A stretch of DNA of 36,309 nt from a virus, in the IMG/VR virus record IMGVR_UViG_3300023297_000041, positions 1 to 36,309 of that record, one strand, 5' to 3'. This document shows, in pieces, positions 3,135-30,000 of the stretch. Position 1 is the stretch's first letter. Each line of letters opens with the position of its first letter. The notes below the pieces were generated by a model. It ran no database searches, had not been told where the DNA came from, and worked only from the letters and a program-made list of their open reading frames with translations. The position numbers and the translations under genes were made by a program.

Positions 3135-3433
3135 AGTATCTGGTATTGGTAGCAGTATTGTTTTTAACGGGCTGCGTAACGTATTCTTATGAGCACTCGG
3201 AATATTACCCTGACGGCCAACTGAAGGAGACGATCAAGCTCTCCGGGTCCAAAGCAATGGTTAAGGATTATAAGAAAACGCTTGATGTTAATTTGCCTGA
3301 TGGTGCGTTGCTCGGCGTTGATACTGTAGAAACAGAATCCGATCCCAATTATGTATTGGCATTAGCCCGGGCTGTCGAGCAAACCATTATGGCTTACAAC
3401 GGAACTAACGCAATTAAATTCATCAGTGAATAA
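3131..3433 (+). CDS. Small secreted lipoprotein
   Basis: A 100-residue protein with a textbook lipoprotein signal: MK, a hydrophobic run and the lipobox L12-T13-G14-C15, with Val after the cysteine, so outer-membrane sorting is expected in a Gram-negative-type envelope. The mature part has YYPDGQLKE, as in small host-like toast-rack or DUF-type lipoproteins, but I cannot name a family. Phage lipoproteins in early regions often mediate superinfection exclusion (for example Llp of T5). A spanin role is less likely because it is far from any recognisable lysis cassette and has no i-spanin partner next to it. Confidence 0.7.
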   Translation: MKYLVLVAVLFLTGCVTYSYEHSEYYPDGQLKETIKLSGSKAMVKDYKKTLDVNLPDGALLGVDTVETESDPNYVLALARAVEQTIMAYNGTNAIKFISE

Positions 3434-5992: not shown

Positions 5993-6178
5993 ATGCTAGT
6001 ATTATCACGGAAGGTAAATGAACGGATCTTAATTGGCGATGATATTGTTATTACGATTGTAAGGTGTTCTGAAAAAACTGTTAAGGTTGGGATTGATGCA
6101 CCCCGGCACCTCAATATTGTACGGTCTGAACTTACAGGAGCTGCCACTGATGGCAAAGCCACTAATTTAGGGATATAG
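5993..6178 (+). CDS. csrA: CsrA/RsmA-family translational regulator
   Basis: A 61-residue protein with the complete CsrA signature: MLVLSRKVNERILIGDDI at the N-terminus (strand 1 with Leu4 and Arg6), a middle VKVGIDAP and IVRSEL with Arg44, the second RNA-contacting residue. CsrA dimers bind ANGGA sites, often over Shine-Dalgarno sequences, and block or stabilise mRNAs. Its own leader AAAGGAATTAAATAAATG includes a GGA. It lies just upstream of the XRE regulator, forming a regulatory pair. Both key residues are present, so it is probably functional. It could act on host metabolism mRNAs or on phage timing. Confidence 0.9.
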   Translation: MLVLSRKVNERILIGDDIVITIVRCSEKTVKVGIDAPRHLNIVRSELTGAATDGKATNLGI

Positions 6179-9569: not shown

Positions 9570-9793
9570 TGATAGATGAAATGAAATCAATAGATGCGTT
9601 TTTACAGCAGGAAACAGAGACAATGGCACCGTTGATTATTGAATTTATGAGGGTTCCTCTTGCAAGATTTAATGATGAACAGTTAAGGAAGATAATTCAC
9701 TTTTTAGTAAAAGAAAGCGGTAATAAGAGAGTTACAGGTAGAAGATTTAACGAATTTGCAGAACAACCCGAACCGACAAAGGAAAAACCCTAA
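9569..9793 (+). CDS. Hypothetical helical protein before the portal
   Basis: A 74-residue protein, mostly helical (FLQQETETMAPLIIEFMRVPLARF, then LRKIIHFLVKE) with a proline/charged tail. It has TAATG overlaps on both sides. I do not recognise the family. Co-translation with the portal suggests a head-assembly role. Confidence 0.55.
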   Translation: MIDEMKSIDAFLQQETETMAPLIIEFMRVPLARFNDEQLRKIIHFLVKESGNKRVTGRRFNEFAEQPEPTKEKP

Positions 9794-11499
9794 TGTTTGA
9801 TTTTACTGGTAAAACAGATTTACAAATAGCAGCTATCATAACTAAAGACCATGCTAGGCTTGTGAATGAACGCAGGGACTTTGAGGGGTTATGGGAGATT
9901 GAGAATAAGATATTCCTGCCACGTCGTTACGACCTGCTCCATGCGGGTGTTAAAAAGGGTCAGCAATACGGAGCAAGGGTCTATGATGGTCATCCTGCCA
10001 ATGCAGCTAATAAGTTCTCAATGGGTATGCTCGCACATATGATGAGTAAATCCGTGCCGTGGATACAGTTCGCTACTTCCAAAGCTAAAGTAATGAAAGA
10101 GGATTCTGTTAAAAAGTATGTTCAGGACGCTGCGGAGCAAGTAAATTTTGGGCTTGGCAACTCCAACGTTTATGGACAGAGCGTTTGGTTCTCTAAAGAT
10201 GGTGCCGTTACTGGCACGGCAGTTAGTATACCCGAAGAGGATAAAATAAAAGGCACAATGCACTATCAGACGGTTAGTCCTCGTGACTCCTACAACAAGT
10301 TTGATAGGTTTGGTAATTTGATGGTCTATCATCGCAATATCACAATGTCTGCAATCGAGGCTTACGATGAATTTGATAAGTCTAAACTTCCTACAGAACT
10401 TATTAGGAATGCTAAAGGCGAAAATAGCGGTGACCCATTCAAAGAATACAGTTTGATTTATGCTGTATATCCAAACGCTAATCCGAGAGAGGGTTCGCTT
10501 CGCAGTGAAGATAAGAAATTCAAAGTCTTTTATGTACTCAAAGCTCAAGGGGTTGGTAAAAATGCTCTCGTTCAGCATACGGGTACGCAGATGGGTCCGA
10601 TTATATGGGCTCACGGCAGAGAGCCTGGCACAAATTATGGAGTGTCTATTGCAGCGGATGCACTGACTGAAGGATTGCAGGGTAATAAACTTGGTGAGCT
10701 ATTATTGAGAATGACACATAGAGAAGCTGACCCTGTTACCGAAGCACCGTTGGCAATGAAAGAAAGCGGTATTCAAACTAATCCGGGTGGTCGTAATTGG
10801 GTACCTGAAAAGTATATTGGTCACAACGCAATTCGAGAAATATTTAGTAGTGGTAATTGGCCGATGACTGATGCTCAGGAACAAAGATTGCACGCTACTT
10901 TAGATGACAAATTCTATGTAGGCTTGTGGGACGCCCTGATGACAATGAACGGCCCACAAAAGACGGCTACCGAAGTTATGCAAATTCAAGGCAATAAAGC
11001 TGTATTACTATCGCCGGTATCAGAAGATTTCGAGAATGCTTACCTCAAACAGATAGTTGATGCCCAGTGGGTATTCGAAGAACAAATCGCACGTAGAATG
11101 CCTGATGTGCCTGACATCCTTTTAGAGCCTGAGAATCGGCAGATAGATACAGTATTCATTGGTCCGTTAAATCAACTCCAACGCGCTACAATGCAAACCA
11201 GAGGTACAGTAAACGCATTAGCAGTTATCAGGCAAATTGCAGATATGTGGCCTCAGAGTTTAATCAAAATAAACGAGATGGATTTGCTTGAAGATGCAGC
11301 CATTGCTCAGGGTATGAAACAATCCCTTATTAAAACAGATGAGGAAGTTAAGGCTATTCTTGAGGCTAATGCAGCTGCCGCAGAAGCAGAGCAACAGACA
11401 AATATGGCTATTGAAGGTGCTAAAGCGGCTGGCGGACTCACAAAAGCAATTGAGCAGGACTCTATTTTAGACCAGGCGGCTGGGGCTATGAATGGGTAA
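9793..11499 (+). CDS. Portal protein (podovirus head-tail connector)
   Basis: A 568-residue protein typical of the head-tail connector family of podoviruses (500-570 residues). Motifs: ANKFSMGMLAHMMSKSVPWIQF near residue 70, the central stem region DALTEGLQGNKLGELLLRM (about 298-316) and TATEVMQIQGNKAV, then a long C-terminal helix ending in an Ala/Glu/Gln-rich tail (AAAAEAEQQTNMA) that would line the barrel. Dodecamers form the DNA channel at the unique vertex and dock the terminase and tail adaptor. The start is coupled by TAATG. Confidence 0.9.
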   Translation: MFDFTGKTDLQIAAIITKDHARLVNERRDFEGLWEIENKIFLPRRYDLLHAGVKKGQQYGARVYDGHPANAANKFSMGMLAHMMSKSVPWIQFATSKAKVMKEDSVKKYVQDAAEQVNFGLGNSNVYGQSVWFSKDGAVTGTAVSIPEEDKIKGTMHYQTVSPRDSYNKFDRFGNLMVYHRNITMSAIEAYDEFDKSKLPTELIRNAKGENSGDPFKEYSLIYAVYPNANPREGSLRSEDKKFKVFYVLKAQGVGKNALVQHTGTQMGPIIWAHGREPGTNYGVSIAADALTEGLQGNKLGELLLRMTHREADPVTEAPLAMKESGIQTNPGGRNWVPEKYIGHNAIREIFSSGNWPMTDAQEQRLHATLDDKFYVGLWDALMTMNGPQKTATEVMQIQGNKAVLLSPVSEDFENAYLKQIVDAQWVFEEQIARRMPDVPDILLEPENRQIDTVFIGPLNQLQRATMQTRGTVNALAVIRQIADMWPQSLIKINEMDLLEDAAIAQGMKQSLIKTDEEVKAILEANAAAAEAEQQTNMAIEGAKAAGGLTKAIEQDSILDQAAGAMNG

Positions 11500-14271: not shown

Positions 14272-15300
14272 ATGGCAACACTTGCTTTAGGAACAAATCT
14301 AACGCTGGCTGAGATTGTACGCAGAGAAGATCCTAACGGAACTTTAGCTGATATAGTAGACATCCTCAGTCAGACAAACGCTATCGTACAGGATTCTACA
14401 TGGATTCCTTGTAATGATGGCTCCAGCCATCAACACACCCGTTCTGTAACAGAGCCTACCGGTTCTGAACGCATGTACGGTCAAGGTGTTAAGAAAGAAG
14501 CTGGCGTAACAGAAGTAGTAAACGAGCCGACTACACTCTTAGCAGGACTCAGCGAACCAGATGCCGACTTGCTCCGTGGTGCAGCTGGTGGATGGCAAAT
14601 GGCCAGAGCCAAAGAAGATGCTTTCTTCATCAATGGCATGACCAAGACGCACGTAAGCCGTATATTTGACGGTAACAGAAGTACAAATCCCCTTCAGGTC
14701 AACGGTATTAACAACAGAAGCGACTATAATGCTTTGAGTAGCGATTACGTCTACGATAACGCAGGCGGTAACGCTTCCGCCACAGCAAACAAAACCAGTA
14801 TATACATCTTCCAGTATGGCCATAAAAAGGTCAACCTGCTCTATCCTCGTGGTCAGGGCGGCGGCGAAGGTGGATCACCGATCAAGATGCGTGACTTCGG
14901 TGAGAACCTCGTAGCAGATCCAAACAACTCCAGTGCCAGGTATCCAGCAATGCAGAGCTGGTTCCAGATAGCATTCGGTATCGACATCGCTGATCCCCGC
15001 ATGGTTAAACGTCTCTGTAATATTTCAACCAGTAACATCGATGGTGTTGACGACTTTAGCTTTGATGAAGAATTGCTCATCGATGCCTATAACGACCTCG
15101 AAGATGGTGGGATGGGTGCGGTTATTTACTGCAATAGAACCATTAAAGCTCAGATGATGAAACGCGCCAACGAAAAAGGTAACGCTTTCCTCGTAGCTAA
15201 AGAAGGCGAAGGACCTTTCGCTCAGCCAGTTCTGAGATTTTGGGGTATCCCGGTTCGTGAAGTTGCTCAGATAACTAACGTTCAGGCGACTGTAAGCTAA
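14272..15300 (+). CDS. Major capsid protein
   Basis: A 342-residue protein. The start at ATG 14272 has an AGGAG site and the conserved beginning (MATLALGTNLTLAEIVRRED); the upstream in-frame GTG at 14203 would add a leader-encoded tail and is rejected. N-terminal NGTLADIVDILSQTNAIVQD, central YGQGVKKEAGVTEVVNEPT and C-terminal RFWGIPVREVAQI (about 322-334) match the podovirus capsid family that includes many 330-350-residue proteins ending in RGIPIRxxDAI. It forms the HK97-fold shell. It follows the scaffold and precedes a cement protein, and it carries no signal peptide. Confidence 0.88.
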   Translation: MATLALGTNLTLAEIVRREDPNGTLADIVDILSQTNAIVQDSTWIPCNDGSSHQHTRSVTEPTGSERMYGQGVKKEAGVTEVVNEPTTLLAGLSEPDADLLRGAAGGWQMARAKEDAFFINGMTKTHVSRIFDGNRSTNPLQVNGINNRSDYNALSSDYVYDNAGGNASATANKTSIYIFQYGHKKVNLLYPRGQGGGEGGSPIKMRDFGENLVADPNNSSARYPAMQSWFQIAFGIDIADPRMVKRLCNISTSNIDGVDDFSFDEELLIDAYNDLEDGGMGAVIYCNRTIKAQMMKRANEKGNAFLVAKEGEGPFAQPVLRFWGIPVREVAQITNVQATVS

Positions 15301-15864: not shown

Positions 15865-16941
15865 ATGAAAAGGTTACTTTTTTTAATTGTAATAATCACA
15901 CTTCTGGCCGGAAATTGTTTCGGTGGAGCGTCTGGTTATAATTTAGGTGCCGTGGGTCAGCCTATACCATCCGACTGGTTCTCGTCGGGTAGGCAGGTGG
16001 ACTACGGAACTAATGCCCTGCGTAACATGGAGACACTCGTAGCTCTCGGAGTTAATCCAGGCACTGGCTCGATATTCTACGTTGATTCCGGTGTTACAAA
16101 TGAGGGTGATGGTTCCAGCTGGAATAACGCTGTTGACACACTCGACGAAGGCATTAATTTATGCACTGCTGGCCGGGGTGATGTTATCCTCGTAGCACAG
16201 GGTCATACCGAAACAGAGGCTACTTCTGCAACGAGCTTGTTTACTCTCGATGTCGCAGGTGTAACTATTATAGGCTGTGGAAACGGGAGCTACAATTCTG
16301 TGGTTGCTTCCGGTGCCTCCACTGGTCAGATGATGCCCACACTGATTTTAGATGCGGCTGATGCGACTGTGACGATTAGTGCTGCGAACTGTAAGGTTGT
16401 TGGCCTGTTGTTTGTTAGTGATATTGCTGATGTTGCTGTTGGTGTCACCGTTGCTGCGACTGCAGATGGTAGCACTATTCAAGGTTGCGTGTTCAAAGAT
16501 AACGCTGCTAACTTAGAGTTTACAGTGAATATCTCTGTTGCTGCACTGGCACCAGACGTAAAGATACTTGGAAATAAATTCTTTACAACTGCTGCTGCTA
16601 CTACATCTAATGCTATCTTGAGTGCTGCTAATACCGGACTGGTAATCCAAGGCAATACTGCTTATGGGAAATATGCAACTGGAGCTATCTTAACCTCTGG
16701 AGTTTTAACGAGTGCGATTATCACTGATAACATTCTCGTTAATGCAGAAGCCGCAATAGCGATTGCACTTAATGGCACGACTTCAACTGGAATACTTACG
16801 AGGAACTTCCTTGGTGGCGAGGGTAGTACCCTTGCTGCTGTCTTGACAGGTGACGATGCAATGACTTGCTTCGAGAACTATGCCTCCGACACAGCGGGTG
16901 GTAGTGGTGTTATAAACCCAGCCGTTAATGCTGCCGACTAA
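15865..16941 (+). CDS. Signal-peptide-bearing beta-helix protein (surface decoration or fibre)
   Basis: A 358-residue protein behind TTTGGAG. Residues 1-20 form a Sec signal peptide (MKRLL, hydrophobic run, AGNCFGG); the Cys is preceded by Asn, so it is not a proper lipobox. After a linker comes SIFYVDSGVTNEGDGSSWNNA, the opening of right-handed parallel beta-helix proteins, and many short repeating rungs (VTIIGCGNGSY, CKVVGLLFVSD, STIQGCVFKDN, VKILGNKFFTT, LVIQGNTAYGK, SAIITDNILVN). It is probably a trimeric or monomeric beta-helix carried on the virion or released to the cell surface. It lies between two terminators. Confidence 0.7.
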   Translation: MKRLLFLIVIITLLAGNCFGGASGYNLGAVGQPIPSDWFSSGRQVDYGTNALRNMETLVALGVNPGTGSIFYVDSGVTNEGDGSSWNNAVDTLDEGINLCTAGRGDVILVAQGHTETEATSATSLFTLDVAGVTIIGCGNGSYNSVVASGASTGQMMPTLILDAADATVTISAANCKVVGLLFVSDIADVAVGVTVAATADGSTIQGCVFKDNAANLEFTVNISVAALAPDVKILGNKFFTTAAATTSNAILSAANTGLVIQGNTAYGKYATGAILTSGVLTSAIITDNILVNAEAAIAIALNGTTSTGILTRNFLGGEGSTLAAVLTGDDAMTCFENYASDTAGGSGVINPAVNAAD

Positions 16942-16991: not shown

Positions 16992-17906
16992 ATGAAAACA
17001 ATTCTATTAATTCTGATAATGGTTGTGGCCTTTGTAATTCCAGTAGATGCTGAGCCTCTTGACACCTATCAATCCAGTTGGCACCTTATCCGCGAGACTG
17101 CTGATGAAGATGGTGATAGATTTAGTAACGTGTATGATTTAACAGGCGAAAGTGAAACTGTGCCCGGTGGCAATTTTGCTGGCAAGGATAGCTCTACTGT
17201 TCTCGCTGGTGGACCATTTAGAATCCCCACACTATCTGATACAAGAAGCGAGGGCTATACTCCCGGCTCTAAGTGGATGTTTGCAATCTGCGGTAAGAAC
17301 TACAATGCTCTTGATGATACATTCAGCTATTCCGTAATTGGATGGGGCAAGACAAACGGGATGTTGCAGGTTCTTGCTGAGGGTACTGGTATATTGGGAA
17401 CTCAGGCGGTTAAGGTTTACCCTGACGGCGGCGATGCTATAGGTGAGTTGATTAGCGAAACTGCGGTTACTTACGACCATGTTGGTGCAGCACAAAGCAC
17501 TTATTTTACTGTGACAAACGAAAGCTTTGCCGGTGCAGTACCTTTTATGATAGCGTATGTGACAGGCACAAACATAACTACCGGATTTTACACAGTGGGT
17601 ATATGCACAGACTCTAATAACATACAGATAGCTGTCACCGCCTCAGATGATAATACAGATTCAACAGTACAAATCAACCCTGCTTTCTGGGCCGACACGA
17701 TAGTTTTAGATGCGACAACTAAATGGCCTCTTGATGTAGATGGAGACGGTGCGAATGCACAGGTCTATAACTCTGCTGATAACGAGGTTGCTGTCATTGT
17801 ACTCGATACGACTGGCATAGAGTGGCTGCAATTTGTTATTTGCGGTGCCGATGCTGCTACCGGCGAAGAGGCTGGCGATATTACAGTTTATGGCCGAAGA
17901 TACTAA
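16992..17906 (+). CDS. Signal-peptide-bearing virion/surface protein
   Basis: A 304-residue protein. The start at ATG 16992 follows GGAG by 6 bp; an earlier TTG at 16980 in frame is rejected. Residues 1-20 are a textbook signal peptide ending PVDA before EPLDTYQ. The mature protein is beta-rich, with SEGYTPGSKWMFAICGKNY, YSVIGWGKTNG, GTGILGTQAVKVYPDGG, a Thr/Asp-rich segment, and an ending GEEAGDITVYGRRY. I do not recognise the family; it resembles plain structural proteins located between capsid and tail genes in podoviruses, apart from the signal peptide. Confidence 0.6.
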   Translation: MKTILLILIMVVAFVIPVDAEPLDTYQSSWHLIRETADEDGDRFSNVYDLTGESETVPGGNFAGKDSSTVLAGGPFRIPTLSDTRSEGYTPGSKWMFAICGKNYNALDDTFSYSVIGWGKTNGMLQVLAEGTGILGTQAVKVYPDGGDAIGELISETAVTYDHVGAAQSTYFTVTNESFAGAVPFMIAYVTGTNITTGFYTVGICTDSNNIQIAVTASDDNTDSTVQINPAFWADTIVLDATTKWPLDVDGDGANAQVYNSADNEVAVIVLDTTGIEWLQFVICGADAATGEEAGDITVYGRRY

Positions 17907-17934: not shown

Positions 17935-18597
17935 ATGAATAAGACAGACATTATCAACGCTGCTCTATTCGTTATAGGGTCAAAGAAAATCTTTGCACCT
18001 GCCGATAATACCAAATCCGCAAAATATGCCACTTCAATTTACGATTTCTGTCGGCACTTAGTTTATGATATGCCTATCGACTGGAGATGGGCTATTGCCC
18101 GAAGTAACCAATTAGCCCAACTTGCAGACCCCACCACGGGACCTGACCATCAATATGCACTACCAGATAACTGCGTTAGGCCACTGGCGATGGTTGATGT
18201 AGATGGTGATGAAGTTGAATATACGTTCCAGCCTGGTCTATTGGTGGACGGCGGTAATATTACCAAAACACTGCAAACTAATGTCGATTCCGGCGATGTG
18301 TATATTAAATACATAGTCTTTGTCGAAGATGAGGCGATGTATCCATCTTGGTTCTCACAACTTATTGCTCTAAACATTGCATTATATATTTCAGAGCCTA
18401 TCAAGCAACACACTCCACACTACAATAAAGTAAAAGATATGTTGGATAATGCTTATGTAGTTGCTACCGAGGCGAATGCCTTATGGGGTGTTAAAACCAA
18501 CTCTAAAACCCGCCGACCTGTAGATTTTGGAAACGATGCTCTTGTTAACGCTGCCGTGCAGTCAGAGGGAATTATAATTAATTATGGATTTTGTTAA
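17935..18597 (+). CDS. Tail adaptor, tail tubular protein A (gp11)-like
   Basis: A 220-residue protein behind TTAGGAG. It follows the T7 gp11-type pattern: DIINAALFVIGSKKI at the start, SIYDFCRHLVYDMPIDWRWAIAR (about 34-56), QYALPDNCVRPLAM (about 72-85), VYIKYIVFVEDEAMYPSWF and a helical end. This adaptor ring joins portal and nozzle. It has no signal peptide, in contrast to the genes around it, so it should stay in the cytoplasm with the head. Confidence 0.8.
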   Translation: MNKTDIINAALFVIGSKKIFAPADNTKSAKYATSIYDFCRHLVYDMPIDWRWAIARSNQLAQLADPTTGPDHQYALPDNCVRPLAMVDVDGDEVEYTFQPGLLVDGGNITKTLQTNVDSGDVYIKYIVFVEDEAMYPSWFSQLIALNIALYISEPIKQHTPHYNKVKDMLDNAYVVATEANALWGVKTNSKTRRPVDFGNDALVNAAVQSEGIIINYGFC

Positions 18598-18606
18598 AAG
18601 GCTACA

Positions 18607-19803
18607 ATGAAAAAAGCAATACTAATATTTATTCTATGTGTGGCCACATTGGTATCGGCAATACCGCCACGCAATGTTTATCCCGAGAACATCAAAATAA
18701 GACTTGTTGAAGTTGAGCCGACCATAGTTAACGCCGGCGATGCTGACGGACAGATGCTCTATTGGGACGGCACCAATAGTTACTGGGCCCCATCAGATGA
18801 AGCAAAATTAAAGTGGTTTTCTGCTACAGATATACTTTTAGCAGATACGTTAAACTTAAACAATGCTCTGACGGTCCCTTATGGCGGCACTGGCGGGACA
18901 ACCCTAACCGATGGCGGGATTCTTTTGGGTTCTGGAGCTGGGGCTATTACGGCGCTTGGAGCGGCCTCTAATGGACAGGTGCCTATAGGTGATGGAACTA
19001 CTGACCCTGTTTTAGCAACTATTACCGGCGGATATGCTGTTGATGTCACAAATGCTGCGGGTTCAATAACCGTAGATGTTAATTATACTGATATAAACGC
19101 CAACGAAACCGATCCTTGTTATTCTCTTTTAGGCGTTCCTTATACTGGCGCTGCTGCCGATATATTTTTAGGTAATCATTCATTATATTGCCAATATATA
19201 AAAGCATCAAGTACTATCGTGCCGGCTATTTGGGGCGAAAATACTTATGGCACAGGAGTGTTTGGTACTGCTACTACTGGCACAGGAGTGTTTGGTACTG
19301 CCACTACTGGTTACGCAGGTTATTTTGCAGGAAAAGCTAAAGTAACGAGCACCCTAGTCGTTGACACTTTAATTATTGAGGCGGGCTCTATTACAGATAC
19401 AAACGACAACATAGATTATAACGATACCGATTGGCAAGGAATAGGCTCGCATGTGGCAGGCGATTATACTTCAGTAGTCGCTACTGGCACAGCTCCGTTC
19501 TTTTGTGATTCTACAACTGTTTGCGTGAATTTGAACGCTGATTTGTGGGATGGATACCAGTTTGCAGATTATTTAAATCAAGATGTTACAACAACCGGCA
19601 CACCCACCTTCGCCACCGTAGATGCGGGGTCATCTTGTGAAGCAAATGCTTATACTGTTGGTGGGGTTTCTGGGGTGAGTGGGACGTTAGAACTTGATGA
19701 TGGAACTACAGAAAAAATAACACTTGTATTTACGAGTGGTATTTTAACCTCAAGGACAGTTGCAGCTACAACAAGCTCTGTGTTAGCGGATTGGACCGAT
19801 TAG
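18607..19803 (+). CDS. Signal-peptide-bearing tail fibre
   Basis: A 398-residue protein. Residues 1-18 form a signal peptide (MKKAILIFILCVATLVSA before IPPRN). The mature part has fibre-type sequence: MLYWDGTNSYWAPSD, VPYGGTGGTTLTDGGILLGSG (a motif frequent in phage tail fibres), NGQVPIGDGTTDP, a tandem repeat VFGTATTGTG, and a C-terminal LELDDGTTEKITLVF with a repetitive end. It ends one base before the next ATG. It is probably a trimeric beta-structured fibre on the virion surface that contacts the host. An exported, cell-surface-bound product is the alternative. Confidence 0.7.
   Translation: MKKAILIFILCVATLVSAIPPRNVYPENIKIRLVEVEPTIVNAGDADGQMLYWDGTNSYWAPSDEAKLKWFSATDILLADTLNLNNALTVPYGGTGGTTLTDGGILLGSGAGAITALGAASNGQVPIGDGTTDPVLATITGGYAVDVTNAAGSITVDVNYTDINANETDPCYSLLGVPYTGAAADIFLGNHSLYCQYIKASSTIVPAIWGENTYGTGVFGTATTGTGVFGTATTGYAGYFAGKAKVTSTLVVDTLIIEAGSITDTNDNIDYNDTDWQGIGSHVAGDYTSVVATGTAPFFCDSTTVCVNLNADLWDGYQFADYLNQDVTTTGTPTFATVDAGSSCEANAYTVGGVSGVSGTLELDDGTTEKITLVFTSGILTSRTVAATTSSVLADWTD
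19249..19308 (+). repeat. Two tandem 30-bp repeats in the fibre gene
   Basis: GGCACAGGAGTG followed by TTTGGTACTGCTACTACT occurs twice in tandem (19249-19278, 19279-19308) with one silent change. It encodes GTGVFGTATT twice. The unit is 10 residues, so copy number can change without frame loss, a possible length or phase-variation site in the fibre. Confidence 0.85.
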
Positions 19804-21039
19804 ATGAAATACATTATTATTATATTATTATTTTGTTCGATTACTTTTGGCCTTAATTGGAATCTAAATTCTGATTGCTGGGTAAACTTTGAGGACTTTG
19901 CTATCTTTTCAGATGGATGGCAAACCACTTATGATATAAATGATTTAGCTGATTTTTCAGATGAATGGTTAAGGTATGAATACTATTGCAATGAGCAAGC
20001 TCCAGTTGCTGCTAATTCTGTTGTGAATGTATCGCAATACGAACCTGTTTATATCACATTCTCGGCGTATGACCAAGATGGATTTCTGCCAGTACCACCT
20101 AAACATCTTAAATACCGAATTACTACCCTGCCATCAGATGGCAACGCCTACATTCAAAACACGCTCGAAAATACTTCAAATAGGTTTACCGAAGTCCCTG
20201 ATTGGTGTACTGGCTGGGCGAATAAAGTTATATTTGCTTCCGATACAGTTGGTAATGATACAGTAAAATTTAGGTCTTATGACGGCGAAGAGTTTAGTAA
20301 TGAGGCAACTGTTGACGTTAATGTTATTGCGGCATATGCTGATTATGTATCATTTGATGGTGGCGAAGTTACAATCCCAGATAATGACTATTTAGATATT
20401 AATGATAGTGGCTGGGCAATGAGTATTTGGTATAGAAATATGACCAGCAGTTCCAATGGAAGCATTATTAAAAAAAGAGATAGCAGTCAGGGATGGGATT
20501 TTATTGTTCAATCAGGTAAGTTACTATTTAATCTGTACGATGCGAATGGATTGGTAGTAGCTCTCGAAAGTAACCTCTGCATATCTTATGGCATTTGGTG
20601 GGAAATACTCATTGGAGTTAATGAGGACCCTTGTGATGCTAACAATCAGTATATTTCAATGCAATACTACCAAACAGAAACAAACAGTGGGGAGTATGCC
20701 AATTCAAATGTTTTTGTCTCATCGGTCTACACAAATGATTGCAATGTGATTATCAATCCAAACACTGAAATTGACCATTTAAGATTCTGGGATGATGTAA
20801 GTGAGGAAAGTCATGCAACGACAGTTTTATTCCCAACAAACAGTCGGTGGAATTATACAGAGTCTACATTAGGCATAGGCAATCCATCCAAGGTTCGGTT
20901 TAAAATGGATGAGGGAAGCGGTAGCACAATCACAGATGATAAGGCCAGTGGGCTGGTAGGGACATTCAGCGGGGACGTGTCTTGGATACCTTTGTTTTGG
21001 GACTGGAATAAAAACGGATTACAAAAAATAGAGAACTAA
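19804..21039 (+). CDS. Signal peptide plus dockerin-like plus LamG-type adhesin
   Basis: A 411-residue protein. Residues 1-16 form a signal peptide (MKYIIIILLFCSITFG). Residues 17-60 are dockerin-like: NLNSDCWVNFEDFAIFSDGW and YDINDLADFSDEWL, two calcium-loop/helix halves in the style common in secreted proteins of Phycisphaerae. Residues 65-170 resemble an Ig or cadherin-like domain (EPVYITFSAYDQDG, KVIFASDTVGNDTVKFRSYDG). From 180 on it is LamG/concanavalin-like (DNDYLDINDSGWAMSIWYRN, GSIIKKRDSSQGWDF). It ends with a TAATG overlap into the nozzle gene. It is probably a host-derived glycan-binding adhesin captured by the phage. I would take a fibre role as first choice. Confidence 0.7.
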   Translation: MKYIIIILLFCSITFGLNWNLNSDCWVNFEDFAIFSDGWQTTYDINDLADFSDEWLRYEYYCNEQAPVAANSVVNVSQYEPVYITFSAYDQDGFLPVPPKHLKYRITTLPSDGNAYIQNTLENTSNRFTEVPDWCTGWANKVIFASDTVGNDTVKFRSYDGEEFSNEATVDVNVIAAYADYVSFDGGEVTIPDNDYLDINDSGWAMSIWYRNMTSSSNGSIIKKRDSSQGWDFIVQSGKLLFNLYDANGLVVALESNLCISYGIWWEILIGVNEDPCDANNQYISMQYYQTETNSGEYANSNVFVSSVYTNDCNVIINPNTEIDHLRFWDDVSEESHATTVLFPTNSRWNYTESTLGIGNPSKVRFKMDEGSGSTITDDKASGLVGTFSGDVSWIPLFWDWNKNGLQKIEN

Positions 21040-23624
21040 TGATTAAAAGAGTCCTTATATTTTTGTTGTTATGCTCTAATCTTTTTGGGGCTACAAGTAT
21101 AATCAATGCCTTTAATGCTGGCGAAATATCGCCTCAATTAAATGGTAGAACTGATATTGCTAAGTATTATTCCGGATGCGAGACGCTGGAAAACTTTCTT
21201 GTATTCAGCTATGGTGGAGCGAGTCGACGGCCTGGCACAATGTATATTGCCGATGCCAAAAACTCTGACGAGGCTTGTAGATTAATACCCTTCGAGTTCT
21301 CAACTGAACAAGCTTATATCCTTGAATTTGGCGATGAATATATCAGGTTCTATAAAGATGGTGGGCAGATACAAGATGGGAGCAGCCCTTGCGAAATATC
21401 AACTCCTTATGATACAGACGCTGGCACAAACTTATTTGAGCTGCATTATATCCAATCTGCCGACACGATGTATATTACACATCCAGATTATGCGCCTCGG
21501 AAACTAACTCGAACAGGCCATACATCTTGGACATTAACGGAAGTAGATTTTAAGCGTGGTCCATTCTTAACTGAAAATACTACAACAACAACCATAACAC
21601 CGTCGGCAACGACAGGGACAATCACACTAACCGCCAGTAGTGCTATATTTGATGTGAATGACCACGTTGGTGCTTTGTGGCAGGTAACACATACCGCAGA
21701 GGGGGAATCTGTTTCTGGGTCGTTTTCTCACGATGTTAATGCCCAGGACTCAAACTCACTTACAATGCAGCTCAATCGTAAATATTTGTTCACTACCCAT
21801 GGCACTTGGGCTGGCGATGTGATCCTGCAGCGAAGTTATGATAGCGGGACTGTATGGAAGGATGTCCTTCCTGTTCATTATGAATCTGATGGTAATAGGG
21901 AATATACTGAATCAGAAACCGTCGAGGATGCCATATACAGAGTTCATACCGATGCTAATGATAATGGTATTGATTCAGGCACACTCAAATATAATCTAAC
22001 GGCACTTAGTTTTGATATTGAAGGTGTTGTAGAGTTAACAGTAATAGCGTCCACAACATCAGCAACAGGGACGGTAGAAAATACTCTTGGTGGGACAACT
22101 GCAACCACTAACTGGGCTGAGGGTGCCTTTAGTCTGGATGAAGGATACCCAGCAACGTGCAGCTTCTACGAAGAGCGAATAGCTTATGCCGCCACAACCA
22201 ACCAACCACAAACAGTATGGTTATCCCAAACAGGGGAATGGGATAACTTCCTGGCGGGTAATTTAGATTCTGATGCTATGAGCTATACTATTGCAGCCGA
22301 TGAAGTTAACGCTATCAGGTGGCTTAGTCCCCAAAGCTGGCTGCTCATTGGAACAACTGGCGGCGAGTGGAAGATGGGGTCTGGCTCCGATGGGGCTTTA
22401 ACGCCCACAGATAGAGTTGCAAAAAAACAATCTAATAATGGATCGGCTAATCTGCAGCCGGCAGTATCTAATAATGTTATTATATATGTTCAGAGGCAGG
22501 CTCGCAAGGTTCGAGAGTTAGTTTTTAGCTTTGAAGTTGATAGCTGGTTAAGCCCAGACCTTACGATCCTCAGTGAGCACATAACTAATTCTGGCATTGT
22601 TCAAACGGCTTTTCAAAAAACGCCCGACCCAATACTATGGACAGTACTAACCGATGGCCGTATTGCGACTATGACCTATCAGAGGTCTCAGGACGTTGTT
22701 GGCTGGGGCGAACAGAACTCTGGAGATGCCGATTTTGAGTCGGTGGCGGTAATACCAGGTGATGGCGAGGACGAGGTGTGGGTTTCTGTTGAGCGGTTAG
22801 TGGATGGTTCAATAGTTAGATATATAGAGCAATTCCAACCAAGGGACTTCGGGGCCGACCAAAATGATATATTCTTCGTTGATTCGGGCCTTAGCTTCGA
22901 TGGCGGGGACGCGGTTGTTATTACTGACATAACTTCAGCGTCTCCCGCTGTTGTAACTGCAGCTGCTCATGGCTACTCAGATGGTGACCAGGTGCGAATA
23001 ACATCCGTTGTCGGCATGACCGAAATTAATAACCACGTTTATACTGTTGATGATGCTGCAACAAACACATTTTCTCTTGATGATACGCTTAATAATAACA
23101 TTAATTCAGTGGGTTTCACGGCATATACTTCTGGCGGTTCAGTTGAACAGGTAGAAAATACATTCACAACCCTATCTCACTTAGAGGGCGAGATGGTAGA
23201 TATTTGCGCAGATGGTGAGTTCTATGGCACCGATACAGTCGCAAGCGGAACTATTACGCTTAGTGATTATTATAACACCGTTCACGCAGGTCTAAATTAT
23301 GTTTCAAAACTTGCTCCTATGCAATTAGCGATACCAGGTAATGTTATTGCCGGTAAGACAAAGAGAATTACTGATATTACAGCCCGATTCTACAAGACCT
23401 TGCAATGTAAGTATGGTCCAACTGCTGATTCTGTACTAGACTTATTTGATTTTTCAGAAGAATATACTAATGACATCGATGTCAAGCAGAGCCTGTTTAC
23501 AGGAGAGAGAAAACAGGAATTTGACGGAGACTATCGAACTGTAGGCGAAATATACCTGCAGGTCGATGAGCCAGTGCCATGTTCAATATTGAGTATATCG
23601 CCGGAATTTGAAGTTTATAGATAG
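21039..23624 (+). CDS. Tail nozzle-like protein (tail tubular B-like) with an added signal peptide
   Basis: An 861-residue protein. The conserved podovirus start FNAGEISPQLNGRTDIAKYY (residues 25-44) and NFLVFSYGGASRRPGTMYIA identify the family. Further family motifs: FYEERIAYAATTNQPQTVWLSQTG, WLLIGTTGGEWKMG and QARKVRELVFSFE. An FCCH-type insert lies around residues 631-680 (VVTAAAHGYSDGDQVRI). Unlike the family, it begins with MIKRVLIFLLLCSNLFG, a Sec signal peptide of 17 residues placed ahead of the conserved domain, with no alternative in-frame ATG until the GTM near residue 67. In related phages this protein forms the hexameric nozzle at the tail tip. Confidence 0.82.
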   Translation: MIKRVLIFLLLCSNLFGATSIINAFNAGEISPQLNGRTDIAKYYSGCETLENFLVFSYGGASRRPGTMYIADAKNSDEACRLIPFEFSTEQAYILEFGDEYIRFYKDGGQIQDGSSPCEISTPYDTDAGTNLFELHYIQSADTMYITHPDYAPRKLTRTGHTSWTLTEVDFKRGPFLTENTTTTTITPSATTGTITLTASSAIFDVNDHVGALWQVTHTAEGESVSGSFSHDVNAQDSNSLTMQLNRKYLFTTHGTWAGDVILQRSYDSGTVWKDVLPVHYESDGNREYTESETVEDAIYRVHTDANDNGIDSGTLKYNLTALSFDIEGVVELTVIASTTSATGTVENTLGGTTATTNWAEGAFSLDEGYPATCSFYEERIAYAATTNQPQTVWLSQTGEWDNFLAGNLDSDAMSYTIAADEVNAIRWLSPQSWLLIGTTGGEWKMGSGSDGALTPTDRVAKKQSNNGSANLQPAVSNNVIIYVQRQARKVRELVFSFEVDSWLSPDLTILSEHITNSGIVQTAFQKTPDPILWTVLTDGRIATMTYQRSQDVVGWGEQNSGDADFESVAVIPGDGEDEVWVSVERLVDGSIVRYIEQFQPRDFGADQNDIFFVDSGLSFDGGDAVVITDITSASPAVVTAAAHGYSDGDQVRITSVVGMTEINNHVYTVDDAATNTFSLDDTLNNNINSVGFTAYTSGGSVEQVENTFTTLSHLEGEMVDICADGEFYGTDTVASGTITLSDYYNTVHAGLNYVSKLAPMQLAIPGNVIAGKTKRITDITARFYKTLQCKYGPTADSVLDLFDFSEEYTNDIDVKQSLFTGERKQEFDGDYRTVGEIYLQVDEPVPCSILSISPEFEVYR

Positions 23625-23851: not shown

Positions 23852-24307
23852 ATGGTAGAACTGATTAATTACTTACCGGAGCACGCCGAGCAAATAGTTG
23901 CCGAGGGCGATACCGATCCATCTATCAATGTCGGGAACCTTCCTGCTAATTGGGCTGCAATCCGCAAGGGATCGCCGGCAATGACGGGCGTTGCTGATGG
24001 CCGTATTGTTGGTTGCTCTGGCCTTGAAATATGGTGGCCGGGTATGGCCGAGGGCTGGGGTGTGTTCGTTAAAGATATTTATAAATACAGGATGGGACTT
24101 AGATTACTCAAAGATAAATTCTACGAGTGGATGGATGAATATAAACTTAATCGCATTCAGGCACCGTTAAGAGCTGACTTTGAAGATGGTAAAAAACTGG
24201 CGGTGTTTGTAGGGTTCAAATGCGAGAACCCTAACCCTATGAAACGGTACCATTGCGATGATAGCGATGCACTTATGTATTCGATAGTGAGGGAAAGAAA
24301 TGTTTAA
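23852..24307 (+). CDS. GNAT-fold-like internal virion protein, copy A
   Basis: A 151-residue protein. It has the layout of a GNAT domain: LINYLPEHAEQI at the start, MTGVADGRIVGCSGLEIWWPGMAEGW (strands 2-4), a helical section YRMGLRLLKDKFYEWMD and a C-terminal RIQAPLRADFEDGKKLAVFVGF. T7 internal protein A (gp13) and relatives at this genomic spot are GNAT-like. The next gene is a diverged paralogue (both have QAPLRADF or EAPLRADF). It may be structural rather than enzymatic, since the acetyl-CoA loop (Q/RxxGxG/A) is not obvious. Confidence 0.65.
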   Translation: MVELINYLPEHAEQIVAEGDTDPSINVGNLPANWAAIRKGSPAMTGVADGRIVGCSGLEIWWPGMAEGWGVFVKDIYKYRMGLRLLKDKFYEWMDEYKLNRIQAPLRADFEDGKKLAVFVGFKCENPNPMKRYHCDDSDALMYSIVRERNV

Positions 24308-24740
24308 ATTAATAGATTTTGAGCCGGAACACGCTTTAGAGCTTATGGCAGCAGGCATTAAAGAAGAGACTGCCGATTTAGATGCTGAGAGAGTTGAACT
24401 TTTGGCGAAGTTCCCTGCAATGACTGGTATCTGTGACGACACAATAGTTTGCTGTGGCGGGATGATAATACTGTATCCAGAGTACAGAGCAGAATCGTGG
24501 ACTATGCTATCTTCTGAGATACAGAAGTTTAGAGTCGATTATAAGATGATAAAAAAACAAGTACATACCTGGATGACCCAAAATAAGATTGTACGACTAG
24601 AAGCACCATTAAGGGCTGATTTTATGCCCGGCATAACCTTTGCTGAGCATCAGGGCTTCAAGATTGAGGCCATACTAGAAAAGTATCATCCTGACGGTTG
24701 TGACGCTATGTTGCACACTATCATCAAGGAAAGGGCTTAA
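24300..24740 (+). CDS. GNAT-fold-like internal virion protein, copy B
   Basis: A 146-residue paralogue of the preceding protein with the same order of motifs: FKLIDFEPEHALELM, FPAMTGICDDTIVCCGGMIILYP, a helix FRVDYKMIKKQVHTWM and RLEAPLRADFMPGITFAEHQGF, ending MLHTIIKERA. It overlaps copy A by 8 bp. A tandem duplication with clear divergence suggests the two copies form a heteromer or have split roles in the ejected complex. Confidence 0.65.
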   Translation: MFKLIDFEPEHALELMAAGIKEETADLDAERVELLAKFPAMTGICDDTIVCCGGMIILYPEYRAESWTMLSSEIQKFRVDYKMIKKQVHTWMTQNKIVRLEAPLRADFMPGITFAEHQGFKIEAILEKYHPDGCDAMLHTIIKERA

Positions 24741-24741
24741 T

Positions 24742-25263
24742 ATGCCACTTATTACATTGGGCATTATCGCTATTGCTGCAACGGCTGGAGCTACATACTA
24801 CAGTATGCAGCAGGCTAAACAGCAAGCCAATACAGCTAATAAGATAGCTGAAAACAACGCCCAGCAGATTGAGGCACAGGGAGCCGCCCAGGCAAAGCAG
24901 ATAAAGACCGCCTCAAGGGAAAAACAAAGGTTACTGCTGGATGAACGCCGCCGGGCAATTGCACGCAACAGAGCTAAAACTGGAGCCTCTGGTGTAACTA
25001 TGGAAGGCTCACCATTGTTGAACATGCAGGAAACGGCAAAGAATATAACCTTAGATAAGGAAATGGAAAACTATAATGCCGGTATAGAGGCCGATGCTGT
25101 TGTAACAAAGGCAAAATCTGAGGCGGCTTTATGGAGATATAAGGGCAAGTCTGCTATTGCGGCAGGTAAATTACAGGCAGGGGCAGCATTATTTGGTGGA
25201 GCCTCGCAAATGGCCGATATAGGCATGAGTATGAAATCCGCCCAAAATAAAGGGGTTACATAA
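24742..25263 (+). CDS. Internal virion protein B (gp14)-like, membrane-inserting
   Basis: A 173-residue protein. The start at ATG 24742 has AAGGAAAGGG upstream; the longer in-frame start at 24700 inside the previous gene is rejected. Residues 1-20 form a hydrophobic helix (LITLGIIAIAATAGATYY), then a long Gln/Ala-rich helical region (ANTANKIAENNAQQIEAQG), KTGASGVTMEGSPLLNMQET and a glycine/alanine-rich end. This fits gp14-like ejected proteins that form a channel in the host envelope. The N-terminal helix lacks a cleavage site, unlike the surface proteins. Confidence 0.7.
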   Translation: MPLITLGIIAIAATAGATYYSMQQAKQQANTANKIAENNAQQIEAQGAAQAKQIKTASREKQRLLLDERRRAIARNRAKTGASGVTMEGSPLLNMQETAKNITLDKEMENYNAGIEADAVVTKAKSEAALWRYKGKSAIAAGKLQAGAALFGGASQMADIGMSMKSAQNKGVT

Positions 25264-27068
25264 TGCCGATAATAATACCGCAACGAAAAATACTACCAAC
25301 TAAGCAGATAGCCGACACTCGCGTTACAATGCCGATGGATACATTTAATGGCCAGTTTGCGGCAGGTCAGAACCTTGCTAATAGCGTAAAGCAAGTCGCT
25401 GGGTTTATTGGCGATACCGTTAGTAAAACAATCGTGGCCCAGGGCGAAGAGGAATTTACTCAAGCTAAGTTAGATTATGAAACTGAGTTCCGGACTTTTC
25501 AAGCAGGTTTGGGGCAAGATACAGATTACGCAGGGTATACCAAGAAATTTAATAACTGGCATGATAATTATACCGTAGGCAGAGCAAAATTAATTAATCA
25601 TCGAGGAGCACAATCGAGAGCAAAAGCACAGTTCGATTTGAATAGGGCAGTTAGAGGCAGGACGGTTGATACTAACGCCCAAAACGCACTTGTTAGACAG
25701 ACCAGGGCGGCCATACCGAACAAAATAGAATCTTTTGTTGATGAATACTTAGCAGCTGAGACTCCAGAGACTCAGCATAAATCGGTTGCTGAACGCCATG
25801 GGTATTTCCAAACACTAACGCAAACGGGAGTTTTGAATCCTGATGAAGCTATAGCTATTGAAAAAGATTTCCGGAAAGCTCTAGCAAAGAAGGTTGTACA
25901 AAACACCGTTACGGCCATAGCATTAGAAGAGGGTTGGGAAAAAGCTATTGCATGGGGTGGAGATAACCAAAACATTAAAGAACTGGCAGAAGATTTCGAT
26001 ATTGAATTGTCCGATATTACCGCAGCACTCACGCCGATCATGCAACTGGCTAAAGTAAACAGAGCATCTGGAATTATTGAGCTCAATAAACAGCAAGATA
26101 CTGACAGGGAGTCTTTGCGGGGGTTATTAAATTCTGATAGTTCCGTGGGCTATAATGATGCAATTAACGGATCCAGCTTAATTCCCGAAGAAAGGCTTGT
26201 GTGGGACAATCGTTTCGCTAAAAAAGCAAATCACATCATTGATACAAAACAACAAACAGAAGAAGATAGACTTGGAAATATAATAAATGCCAGGAAGAAA
26301 TCGGATTACGCATCTCTGGTTACCGCATCATCTTTACCTGCTACCAAAAAGGCAGAACTTATTGCTGCCAACGAAACAGCATTAAAAGAATCCACTCATA
26401 TTATTACTGATGAACAGGTTAGGGGCGATCTTGAAGAGATGGCTAACGATATTGCAATTGGAGCGACAACTAAAGCACAGGTAACAGATGCTGCTGACAA
26501 GGCCAGGTATGACGAGGAAACTATCGATGACGCGGCATACAAGCAAATAGTTAAACTTGTTGATAGTGAGTTTACCTCTTACCAGGCAACGGCCATGGGG
26601 GAAGCTATCAGTTATGGTGGTGGCCAATTGATCACTGTAACTCACTCTGTTATTGACGATCTATTAAAAATGCAGGCAGCCGGCCAAGAGGTTAATATCG
26701 AACGAGCAGCAAATAAACGTCAGAGCGAATTATGGAATTTAAGTCAGTACCGCAAGGCTATGAATGATTGGTTGGCCGTGCATCCAGAATCTAATTCAAG
26801 TGAGATATACACCGAATCCAGAAAGCTCTTAGTACATTACAAGCGATCACTGGCTGAGGTAGAAAAGGCACGTACTGGCTTTGAGGAACAATTTATAGCT
26901 GAACCAACAAAAGAAAAGGCTATTGAGGGTGTTAACGTGGTGTTTAAAAAGCCTGTCCGTGTAATGAGTCCTGAAGGCGTGACCGGCTGGAGTAGCGAAA
27001 AAGGATATAACGAAAAATTAAAAGACTTGGGTTTTATAAAGATTAGCGATGCCAATAATACTAAATGA
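25263..27068 (+). CDS. Internal virion protein C (gp15)-like
   Basis: A 601-residue helical protein between the gp14-like and the giant internal protein, the position and size class of T7 gp15 relatives. Features: FNGQFAAGQNLANSVKQVAGFIGDTVSK near residue 24, then long charged helices (EEFTQAKLDYETEFRTFQ) with repeated TPR-like spacing. I see no enzymatic motif and no signal peptide. It is probably part of the ejected core complex that bridges portal and channel. It joins the upstream gene by TAATG and overlaps the next gene by 20 bp. Confidence 0.6.
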   Translation: MPIIIPQRKILPTKQIADTRVTMPMDTFNGQFAAGQNLANSVKQVAGFIGDTVSKTIVAQGEEEFTQAKLDYETEFRTFQAGLGQDTDYAGYTKKFNNWHDNYTVGRAKLINHRGAQSRAKAQFDLNRAVRGRTVDTNAQNALVRQTRAAIPNKIESFVDEYLAAETPETQHKSVAERHGYFQTLTQTGVLNPDEAIAIEKDFRKALAKKVVQNTVTAIALEEGWEKAIAWGGDNQNIKELAEDFDIELSDITAALTPIMQLAKVNRASGIIELNKQQDTDRESLRGLLNSDSSVGYNDAINGSSLIPEERLVWDNRFAKKANHIIDTKQQTEEDRLGNIINARKKSDYASLVTASSLPATKKAELIAANETALKESTHIITDEQVRGDLEEMANDIAIGATTKAQVTDAADKARYDEETIDDAAYKQIVKLVDSEFTSYQATAMGEAISYGGGQLITVTHSVIDDLLKMQAAGQEVNIERAANKRQSELWNLSQYRKAMNDWLAVHPESNSSEIYTESRKLLVHYKRSLAEVEKARTGFEEQFIAEPTKEKAIEGVNVVFKKPVRVMSPEGVTGWSSEKGYNEKLKDLGFIKISDANNTK

Positions 27069-30000
27069 CAAAAAGGTTATAGATAATTCCATCGATGATG
27101 ACATCAGTGATGTATTTATCCCTGACATCCAGCCACAATCGAACGTTATAGCAGATCCTGACAGCGTTGGAAATAATGCCAACGAAATCTACGATATTGC
27201 TGTTAACGCTAGTGCTTCTATATCTGATATAGAAAATAATTTTGTTCCCGATAATCAGATGCAGTCGGTGATCAAAGAGAAGGTAGCCCAAAATGTTATC
27301 ATCGAGCAAGCCCGGATAGCCGAGGATGCAGAGCTCCGATCAGAAGCTCTTGACAGACTCATATTTGGTGATGGCCTGGACGATCCTGTATTCGCCGGAA
27401 AAATTGCAACTACCCTACTAAACCCTGTCGAAAAGGAGAGAATGACGGATGCGATTATTACATCGGGCATGTTTGATATTCCACTTGACCATGTTATGGG
27501 CATGGACGATGCTGCTAGGGCTAAGGTCTTTGGCCCTGAATTAAAAGATATCCGAAAAAAGTTTCAGCAGAACCCATTCGATGGCGGGTTCTTTGCAACA
27601 TCTATAGAGGCTTGGAAACGAGGCGATGCGGGTTTTATGGGTGCGATTAATCTTTGGGATGCTGCTGTTCAAAATGCTGATGAGACTAAAGCCAGAGCAA
27701 CACTGGGAACTCTACAAAGAAAAGAAGTTTTTGAGCCCATCGAGGCTAAGGGTATTAAAAAACTGTTTTATTCATCAATGCAAATCATACCCGGTATGGC
27801 TAGGGGTTCATGGGAAGGTATTGATGAAGCTTTTTATGGTGCGGCTATCGGTGCTGGTATGGCATTAGCAGGTGGAGCTGCTGGGCCACAGGCGGTTATA
27901 CCAGAAGAAATAGTTACTGTTCCTGTTGCCACAATGGGCGGACTTAGGTTAGGTGCTTCAATTGGCTCTGCAAAAGTGTGGTATAAACAGGGTGCTGGTC
28001 AGATGTATTTTGATATGACTGAAAAAGGCTATGATCCAAAGGTCGCAAGGATGGTAGCTGGTGTTGCCGCCGTTCCTTATGCTCTTATCGAATTGAGTCA
28101 GGTTACAAAGATTACACCGGGATTGCGGAAAGTGGCCTTGGATAGATCTATCAAAACCGTTGGCAAAGTATTAGCCAATGCCGTTAAAAAGTATGGTAAA
28201 ACTTGGGGCGAAGAGGTTTTCGAGGAGATAATGCAGGAAATTGTCGCTGTAACCGCCGAAGATATAGCGGGGCTTTTAAGCGAAACAACCAATACTGAGA
28301 AATCTACTTGGGAGGGGTTGTTAAAAAGAGGTAAACGTTTATGGGAAACGGCCAAGGGTGCCGGAGAGGGCATGGCCTTATTGCCGATTCCAAACGCTGT
28401 TATAGATGTCAAGTCGGGGATTCAAAACATATCTGCCAGTACCATATCAAAACAAAAGGTACAGGCTAAAGCTCAGGCCTTGACAGTTTCAAAACTCACC
28501 GATGAGTATAGCTTGAAAGTTGCACAGCAGTCTCAAGGTGTCATTGAGATATTAGAGCAAGCCAAAAAGGGCGTTCCCGCCGATCCTGAGACCGGCAAGG
28601 CGGCAGTACCGCCGAGAGTATTACAGCCCGAAGAGGCCAAAATGTTAACTACTCTCAAAGAAAACCTCTCCACCCCAGAGAACATAGTCCACGACCTTGA
28701 GCTTAATTTGCCACCGGAGGCCTTTGTTACCGAAGAGGCTACTATTCCAACGGAAAAACCGAGTACAGAGCAACTTGGGGCTGTGGAGGTGGTAGAAAAG
28801 ACCATAGACGTTGGGGCACCTGTTGGTAAGGAAGGCATTGAGCTTGAGGACTTAGAGGGGACGCCGGTACCTATCAATGAAGATAACACAATAACTCTCT
28901 ACCACAGAACTTCCATTGAAAACGTCGAAAACATCAGAAAAACAGGTGAATTTGTTTCTAAAGAGCAAGGCGAAGTATTTTTTTCTACCAAAGAAAAAGG
29001 CCAAGCAGAAGGTTTTGGCGAGGGCATTATTGAGATTAAAATAGATCCATCAAAGGTGGCATTAGATGACGCTTTTTCTGGAGGTGAAGTACATGTATCC
29101 GTATCCAACAAAGACATTACAGTAGAAAATATAAGCCAGCCTGAAAGTGTTCCACGTGAAGCAAAACGCATAATCTCAGACGAAGCATATACCAAAGCCA
29201 AAAAAGGCCTATTTGGTAAGGGTTTTCGTTCTGGTTTAGATCCTGTAGATTTCAAAAACGCTGCAATCATAGGGACGTATCATTTTGAGAACATGGCAAA
29301 GGCCGGCATCAAAGGTGCTGTTGATTTTGCTGAATGGTCTAAGAGAATGGTGATTGAGATGGGTGAGACTATCAAGCCACACCTAAAGGATATATGGGAA
29401 AAGGCCAGGTCTCCACTATACGCGGCTATATCTGACAAAGAAGGCCGCAAAATGACCATACGAATTAATAAGGAAATCAGATCTCTAGGCGACTATGAAA
29501 CACTCGCTGAAAGTGGTTCAGCACGCAAAGCCGACCTACTCCAGAATATAAGTAAAATCAACTTTGCTAAAGACAGAAAATCATTGCCGGCAGAAGTCAA
29601 AGAGATGTTGACCGGCGAAAATCGCTGGCTATATGAGTATGTAACAACTACAGAACAAAATCCAAGTGCGTTAACATGGGATGAATTTTCCGAGGACTAC
29701 GGCATTGAGGGTTCAGAAAGCGATGTTTTACAGGCTATTAAGGATGCCGTTCAAGGCGGGAAAGAGGGTGGCATAAACCAAAAGGCGTTAAATGAAATCG
29801 CTAAAACTAATCCTTACGCAGCTATGCTTGTGGAATTAAAAAATGCAGTAGAAAATCGCTTGCCTGGTAACAAGATTAACGATATACTACAAGCATATAT
29901 TAATGAGGACTTGTTAGATGACGAAGCAATTGAACAATGGAAAATCGGTCGAGAGCCGGATAAAAAGAGCACGGGCAGCAAGCCAAAAGATAGTTCAAGA

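Follow-up and report, generated by a model that had tools for sequence, protein, structure and literature searches.

Why does a protein that forms part of the DNA channel of a short-tailed phage begin with what resembles an export signal? The question is raised by a tail nozzle gene in the IMG/VR record IMGVR_UViG_3300023297_000041, a single record of 36,309 bases that was analysed in full and is referred to as the window. The nozzle is encoded by an open reading frame (ORF) at positions 21039–23624 on the plus strand, which starts with ATG and yields a product of 861 aa. In front of its usual N-terminus it carries a leader which, judged from sequence, is real, selected and export-like. Export of the nozzle is predicted from the form of this leader.

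The leader of the window nozzle

The nozzle is of the T7 type (gp12 or tail tubular protein B). Profile phrog_376 matches it at full length (residues 20–859, from profile position 6) with an E-value (E) of 4e-209, and it is homologous by profile to the solved nozzle 8ck1 of Cobetia phage Carin1 (E 4e-149). The gene order, with the adaptor (17935) upstream and a gp14-like gene (24742) downstream, fits a T7-type tail module; the interval between adaptor and nozzle holds two leader-bearing genes (18607 and 19804). The gene is single-copy in the window record and likewise in G001. An AlphaFold2 model, considered with regard to a beta-propeller, was of low confidence, with a mean predicted local distance difference test score (pLDDT) of 57.9. 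The nozzle is a known kind of protein, and its export-tagged form is new.

With the T7-type nozzles the window protein shares whole-length homology, the place in the tail module near the adaptor and the start motif. The nozzles examined from cultured phages start at most about 17 residues before this motif and lack a leader, whereas the window nozzle has an export-like leader of 17–18 residues. In plain (leaderless) relatives a median of 10 residues, Met included, precedes the motif. Its usual position at about residue 10 does not strictly define the family; in the window nozzle the motif begins at residue 25, as the initial annotation had claimed when contrasting it with the usual start near the N-terminus.

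The stretch before the motif, MIKRVLIFLLLCSNLFGATSIINA, has two positively charged residues and a hydrophobic run of eight; cleavage could plausibly follow residue 17 or 18. A positive start (MIKR) followed by an uncharged hydrophobic core (VLIFLLLC) is typical of signals for the general secretory (Sec) pathway, and the 17 residues of signal sequence noted in the initial annotation are scored as a signal peptide by our rule. The leader MIKRVLIFLLLCSNLFG is followed by ATSIINA, with cleavage expected at residue 17/18 or 18/19. Small residues at positions −3 and −1 are well placed in the relatives L014, L020, L022 and L084. Sister alignments and distances to the motif indicate that leader removal would restore the usual nozzle N-terminus: the predicted mature start lies mostly 6–9 residues before the motif, compared to 7–10 (Met included) in most plain proteins. 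A lipoprotein signal (signal peptidase II) was rejected, as LLLC in the window differs from the lipobox [LVI][AST][GAS]C and the leaders of L018, L020 and L022 contain no lipobox Cys. An enrichment of cysteines for disulfides in exported nozzles was weak (p 0.05) and not used.

The next in-frame ATG is codon 68, in agreement with the annotated absence of an alternative ATG until near residue 67. The only other ATG, GTG or TTG codons before the motif are TTG 9 and 10, which lie inside the hydrophobic core and have no ribosome-binding site. The leader is kept in seven related nozzles (window included) although its residues turn over: the relatives' leaders have only 5–10 residues in common with that of the window, yet all satisfy the rule, which randomised leaders of equal identity do in 2–25% of draws each. 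Given this upkeep despite residue turnover and the lack of a usable alternative start, sequence excludes a misread start as well as it can. A clean 48-nucleotide (nt) in-frame block, which encodes most of the leader of L084 and on both sides of which its DNA aligns with that of the plain relative L080, likewise speaks for the annotated view of an added signal, with export itself a prediction.

Leaders among relatives and neighbouring genes

The nozzle records, 191 in total, came from a profile search across IMG/VR and GTDB, from searches in genomes of Planctomycetota and from three additional viral searches. The first batch of 107 contained 15 records with a leader, plus a false match (L099), and the second batch of 84 contained eight. 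About 168 records were plain, as were all seven cultured phages examined. After duplicate removal 13 distinct leader-bearing nozzles remained, of which L348 is the least certain (start unclear); all are included in the tree. Direct nozzle searches first gave plain relatives and a capsid-protein search gave nearer kin, and all three of these kin with a reachable nozzle (L014, L016, L017) have a leader before the motif. The leader is not a general nozzle trait, as most nozzles are plain. The initial annotation had named a leader on most unrelated homologues as the finding that would speak against it; with this plain majority its reading stands.

The alignment of N-termini and the mapping onto the nozzle tree that it had suggested place the leader on several branches. 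Trees were built without the leader residues. Four leader changes were counted on the 81-row tree, at least three of them forced by starred branches, and six (at least four) on a quick tree of 66 rows; these counts do not separate gain from loss. By these trees the leader trait has been gained or lost several times among the relatives, also on other nozzle branches.

Sister nozzles that differ in the leader were found in L084 compared to L080 and L266, in L098 compared to L121 and in L083 compared to L269. The spike shows the same kind of difference: in L098, MKTKTQLSIILLLVMYSTAAA (ending in STAAA) precedes TVPAGETIREF, whereas the plain sister L121 has only Met before TVASSESIRESF. The plain spike N-terminus agrees with that of cultured Pelagibacter and Methylophilales fibres, and the same pattern was observed in L347. 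In the window, the ATG of the spike leader is served by an AAGGA ribosome-binding site; no such site belongs to the internal ATG at codon 20. The nozzle can therefore not be called the cleanest case, as had been annotated: the spike at 32885 is equally clean, and a sister phage encodes a member of its family that lacks the leader. The export question can be tested directly on sister pairs that differ in the signal.

Near leader-bearing nozzles the rule matched 39 of 142 genes, compared to 7 of 540 (1.3%) near plain ones (p 4e-22, or 2e-15 without the nozzle genes, both uncorrected for relatedness of the loci). This difference excludes a chance origin of the leaders. By family, leaders were counted in 9/10 nozzles, 5/5 full-length proteins of the 15865 type, 2/3 of the 16992 type, 1/1 each of the 18607 and LamG types and 1/2 spikes. 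Altogether, 19 of the 22 homologues of nozzle, spike and tail-region genes carry one. Among 53 homologues of capsid, packaging, adaptor and ejection genes there is a single one once two false hits are set aside (Fisher p about 2e-14 for the comparison, computed with 19/21). The terminase, portal, scaffold, capsid, adaptor and ejection genes of the window were checked for a leader and none was found. False matches of the rule are L099 (read-through), the L018 adaptor and a capsid ORF extended to an upstream GTG, for which the true start is MATLALG.

Copying of leaders between genes of one genome was considered and is clear only in L014 (26/30 nt) and weak in L020. In L020, the neighbouring genes at 3382 and 4379 have seemingly unrelated bodies and similar leaders (NKTILLILLMASCIFAAD and RKTIILLILLMACFTCAAD), with a DNA similarity barely above that of shuffled sequences.

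Proposed export, tail assembly and competing explanations

We propose that the leader would act as a Sec-type signal peptide on the nozzle, the spike and neighbouring tail-region proteins. These precursors would cross the cytoplasmic membrane and be trimmed by signal peptidase to their normal N-terminus, and DNA-filled heads with portal and adaptor would remain in the cytoplasm. Exported nozzle and spike would meet the heads only at the opening of the membrane in lysis, and the tail would be completed outside the cytoplasm. Taken as a joint claim (working Sec signal, export and cleavage of nozzle and spike, completion outside the cytoplasm), we give this an even chance.

The leader, its signal-peptide fit, its upkeep, its exact placement and its repeated switching are read from the DNA, and from them we infer export, cleavage and the place of assembly. 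The step to nozzle export and tail completion outside the cytoplasm is taken because the nozzle is single-copy and essential; with a single gene copy, the leader-bearing nozzle must serve the virion. In T7 the tail is formed after packaging, and the adaptor joins first, then the nozzle and then the fibres (PMC6702177). Based on this order (PMC6702177), nozzle and spike would be late parts.

Several points weigh against this proposal. The cleavage site of the window nozzle is mediocre (LFG before AT, or FGA before TS), and the leader calls come from a signal-peptide rule that is simple, home-made and conservative. We know of no tailed phage with late assembly outside the cytoplasm. In the sister phage G511:C12, which shares the host order, nozzle and spike are plain and other genes have leaders, and in G815 a plain nozzle stands beside three leader-bearing genes. 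Since such plain-nozzle phages still have leaders on other tail-region genes, the switch acts gene by gene, and their existence indicates that the leader is dispensable rather than obligatory. The L020 gp14-like ejection protein (L020 9224–9814) has a signal-peptide-like leader and is the one clear exception to the split between outer and inner proteins. Only nozzle and spike are independently known as outer tail parts; because the outer role of the other four proteins is deduced, the split is partly circular apart from these two.

Alternatively, the leader may be a temporary membrane anchor, with the bodies of nozzle and spike unreleased, tails added at the membrane and the leader cut or left in place. 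A positive start and a hydrophobic core would insert into the membrane in this case too, and weak cleavage sites in some leaders (window, L098) are consistent with it. However, at about 7–13 residues the hydrophobic cores of the leaders fall short of a typical membrane span, and good cleavage sites (AFA, AQA, AAA, AIG) are present in several of the leaders. Removal is also favoured by the way the mature N-terminus matches those of plain relatives, and we regard an anchor as rather unlikely.

Export might also serve another job, such as surface display or release for coating, polysaccharide degradation or blocking of rivals, with enough nozzle escaping for virions. Several leader-bearing neighbours do contain domains of a secreted type (LamG, dockerin-like, beta-helix), with similarity to proteins of the order to which the host likely belongs. 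The nozzle, however, is a part of the DNA channel with no evident use outside the virion, and its gene has one copy and no second start, which makes this explanation unlikely.

Less probable again is a role of the leader as a pro-peptide or an aid to translation, with no contact to the export machinery; it would then be removed in the cytoplasm, or the virion would tolerate it. Initiation might be helped by the A/T-rich ATG AAA codons with which many leader genes open, but the conserved property is hydrophobicity with flanking charge and not a codon or protease motif, and leaders occur almost only on outer-part and tail-region genes. An artefact, be it a wrong start codon, an assembly error or a hydrophobic stretch that arose by chance, is most improbable: the ORF caller takes the first start and some rule matches are false, but 13 distinct nozzles, from many contigs and a GTDB genome, each with a 2–25% chance, together with the lack of a usable internal start in the window nozzle, speak against it, and the relatives refute it.

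Returning to Sec export, we put forward a fuller scenario more tentatively. In these short-tailed phages, probably of Phycisphaerae, heads with portal and adaptor would be built in the cytoplasm, and Sec-exported nozzles and spikes, matured in the periplasm, would be added to the heads either there or once the cell has lysed. The signal would be an evolutionary switch on ordinary tail genes, gained and lost many times.

Tailed phages are, as far as we are aware, taken to assemble wholly in the cytoplasm, and an export signal on a single-copy part of the DNA channel conflicts with this view. The proposed export could reveal how phages deal with the unusual cell plan of Planctomycetota. Coat proteins of filamentous phages (pIII, pVIII) have a cleaved signal peptide and are joined to the particle at the membrane. 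They resemble the proposal as virion proteins with a signal peptide; filamentous phages differ from the window phage in being non-lytic and extruded, without head or tail, and their coat proteins are unrelated. Phage lysis proteins can also bear signals, for example an endolysin (PMC8951688). Signal-anchor-release (SAR) or Sec endolysins and spanins use the host export route, as predicted for the window nozzle, but unlike the nozzle they are not virion parts. In the searched literature, which mostly did not extend to subscription papers, no report of signal peptides on nozzles or other tail structural proteins was found. Target proteins of diversity-generating retroelements (DGRs) encoded by phages lack signal peptides, which a survey took as agreeing with phage origin (PMC6199706). 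In genome mining, a missing signal peptide could no longer mark phage structural proteins.

Likely host and further genes

The window host likely belongs to the phylum Planctomycetota, class Phycisphaerae, and to one order therein, as suggested by sequence matches. L098 sits in a metagenome-assembled genome classed as Phycisphaerae, and its contig C18 is a near-complete phage with terminase, portal, capsid and tail genes. For residues of about 17–60 (dockerin-like) of the window protein at 19804, matching proteins occur in many genomes of a single order of Phycisphaerae; of 59 genomes of that order, 34 have some match to the window protein. Like secreted dockerin/LamG proteins of Phycisphaerae, the protein has this dockerin-like segment behind its leader; its gene, in contrast, is part of a phage tail module and lies between those of adaptor and nozzle. 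The segment (DCWVNFEDFAIFSDGW...DINDLADFSDEWL) is followed by cadherin-like and LamG-like parts. A homologue is encoded at 11322–12902 in L145, a long-tailed phage of the same host order with four leader-bearing genes.

Leaders as a trait of all Planctomycetota phages were rejected, since other nozzles found in the phylum are plain. A trait of all phages of the host order is unsupported, with leaders in 16 of 201 terminase neighbourhoods (by the rule, false hits included). The host alone does not explain the leaders, because other phages of phylum and order mostly lack them.

In L014 (17590–17680) tandem heptad repeats (TTCTTGT/GTCTTGT) encode the core of the nozzle leader. Of 159 genomes of the likely host order, 43 contain interspersed DNA that matches short stretches of this leader region. 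This hints at host-type repeat DNA as a source from which a leader, and with it a signal peptide, could be born. At 16360–16570 in L014, a further tail-region ORF (NHEGHEVTRRGLL...ILCVLCVLCVICG) begins with DNA that matches repeat-like sequence in 119 of 159 host-order genomes.

Table 1 Features of the window discussed in the text
Feature	Position	Strand	Evidence
T7-type tail nozzle (T7 gp12 / tail tubular B type), 861 aa, N-terminal leader	21039–23624	+	phrog_376, 8ck1 homology, one copy
Signal-peptide-like leader MIKRVLIFLLLCSNLFG	21039–21089	+	Rule-based; run VLIFLLLC; predicted mature start 6–7 residues before motif
Conserved family start FNAGEISPQLNGR, nozzle residues 25–37	21111–21149	+	N26, G28, R37 invariant, F25 nearly so (ten relatives)
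Tail spike/fibre with beta-helix, 881 aa, leader MKKLIIVLLLIVCSYSVA before usual fibre N-terminus	32885–35530	+	End_N_terminal, Beta_helix; alignment with cultured fibres and sister phages
Leader-bearing protein (MKRLLFLIVIITLLAGNCFG), putative tail-region role	15865–16941	+	Five full-length homologues, all with leader
Leader-bearing protein (MKTILLILIMVVAFVIPVDA), putative tail-region role	16992–17906	+	Homologues leader-bearing in L018, L020, L349, L352, plain in L349 and L353
Leader-bearing tail-region protein (MKKAILIFILCVATLVSA) between adaptor and nozzle	18607–19803	+	Leader-bearing homologue in L020
Leader-bearing protein (MKYIIIILLFCSITFG), dockerin-like, cadherin-like and LamG-like parts	19804–21039	+	Leader-bearing homologue in L145
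Adaptor (T7 gp11 / tail tubular A type), no leader	17935–18597	+	phrog_394; 0/5 homologues with leader, one false positive set aside
Major capsid protein (GP7 type), no leader	14272–15300	+	PF20911, E 1e-61; 0/9 homologues with leader
Portal, no leader	9793–11499	+	phrog_332; 0/8 homologues with leader
Ejection (internal virion) proteins, gp14/15/16-like, no leader	24742–32871	+	phrog_418 for the first; homologues plain except L020 gp14-like

Between the nozzle and the ejection genes (23852–24740) lie two tandem acetyltransferase-like genes; several cultured relatives have one gene there, annotated as acetyltransferase. In the plain relative L075 (7584–8765) the nozzle ORF is seemingly in two pieces, with a beta-helix-like spike ORF in between. 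The gp16-like ejection protein of the window (27049–32871, 1940 aa) contains a segment (LYHRTSIENVENIRKTGEFV...) that by eye resembles an ADP-ribosyltransferase-type fold, and phrog_6170 matches its residues 611–689. A 61-aa protein at 5993–6178 (MLVLSRKVNERILIGDDIVITIV...) is by eye similar to the RNA-binding regulator CsrA. In the early region, a small lipoprotein-like gene (3131–3433, lipobox LTGC) weakly resembles the Cor family of superinfection exclusion (phrog_1119, E 0.008).

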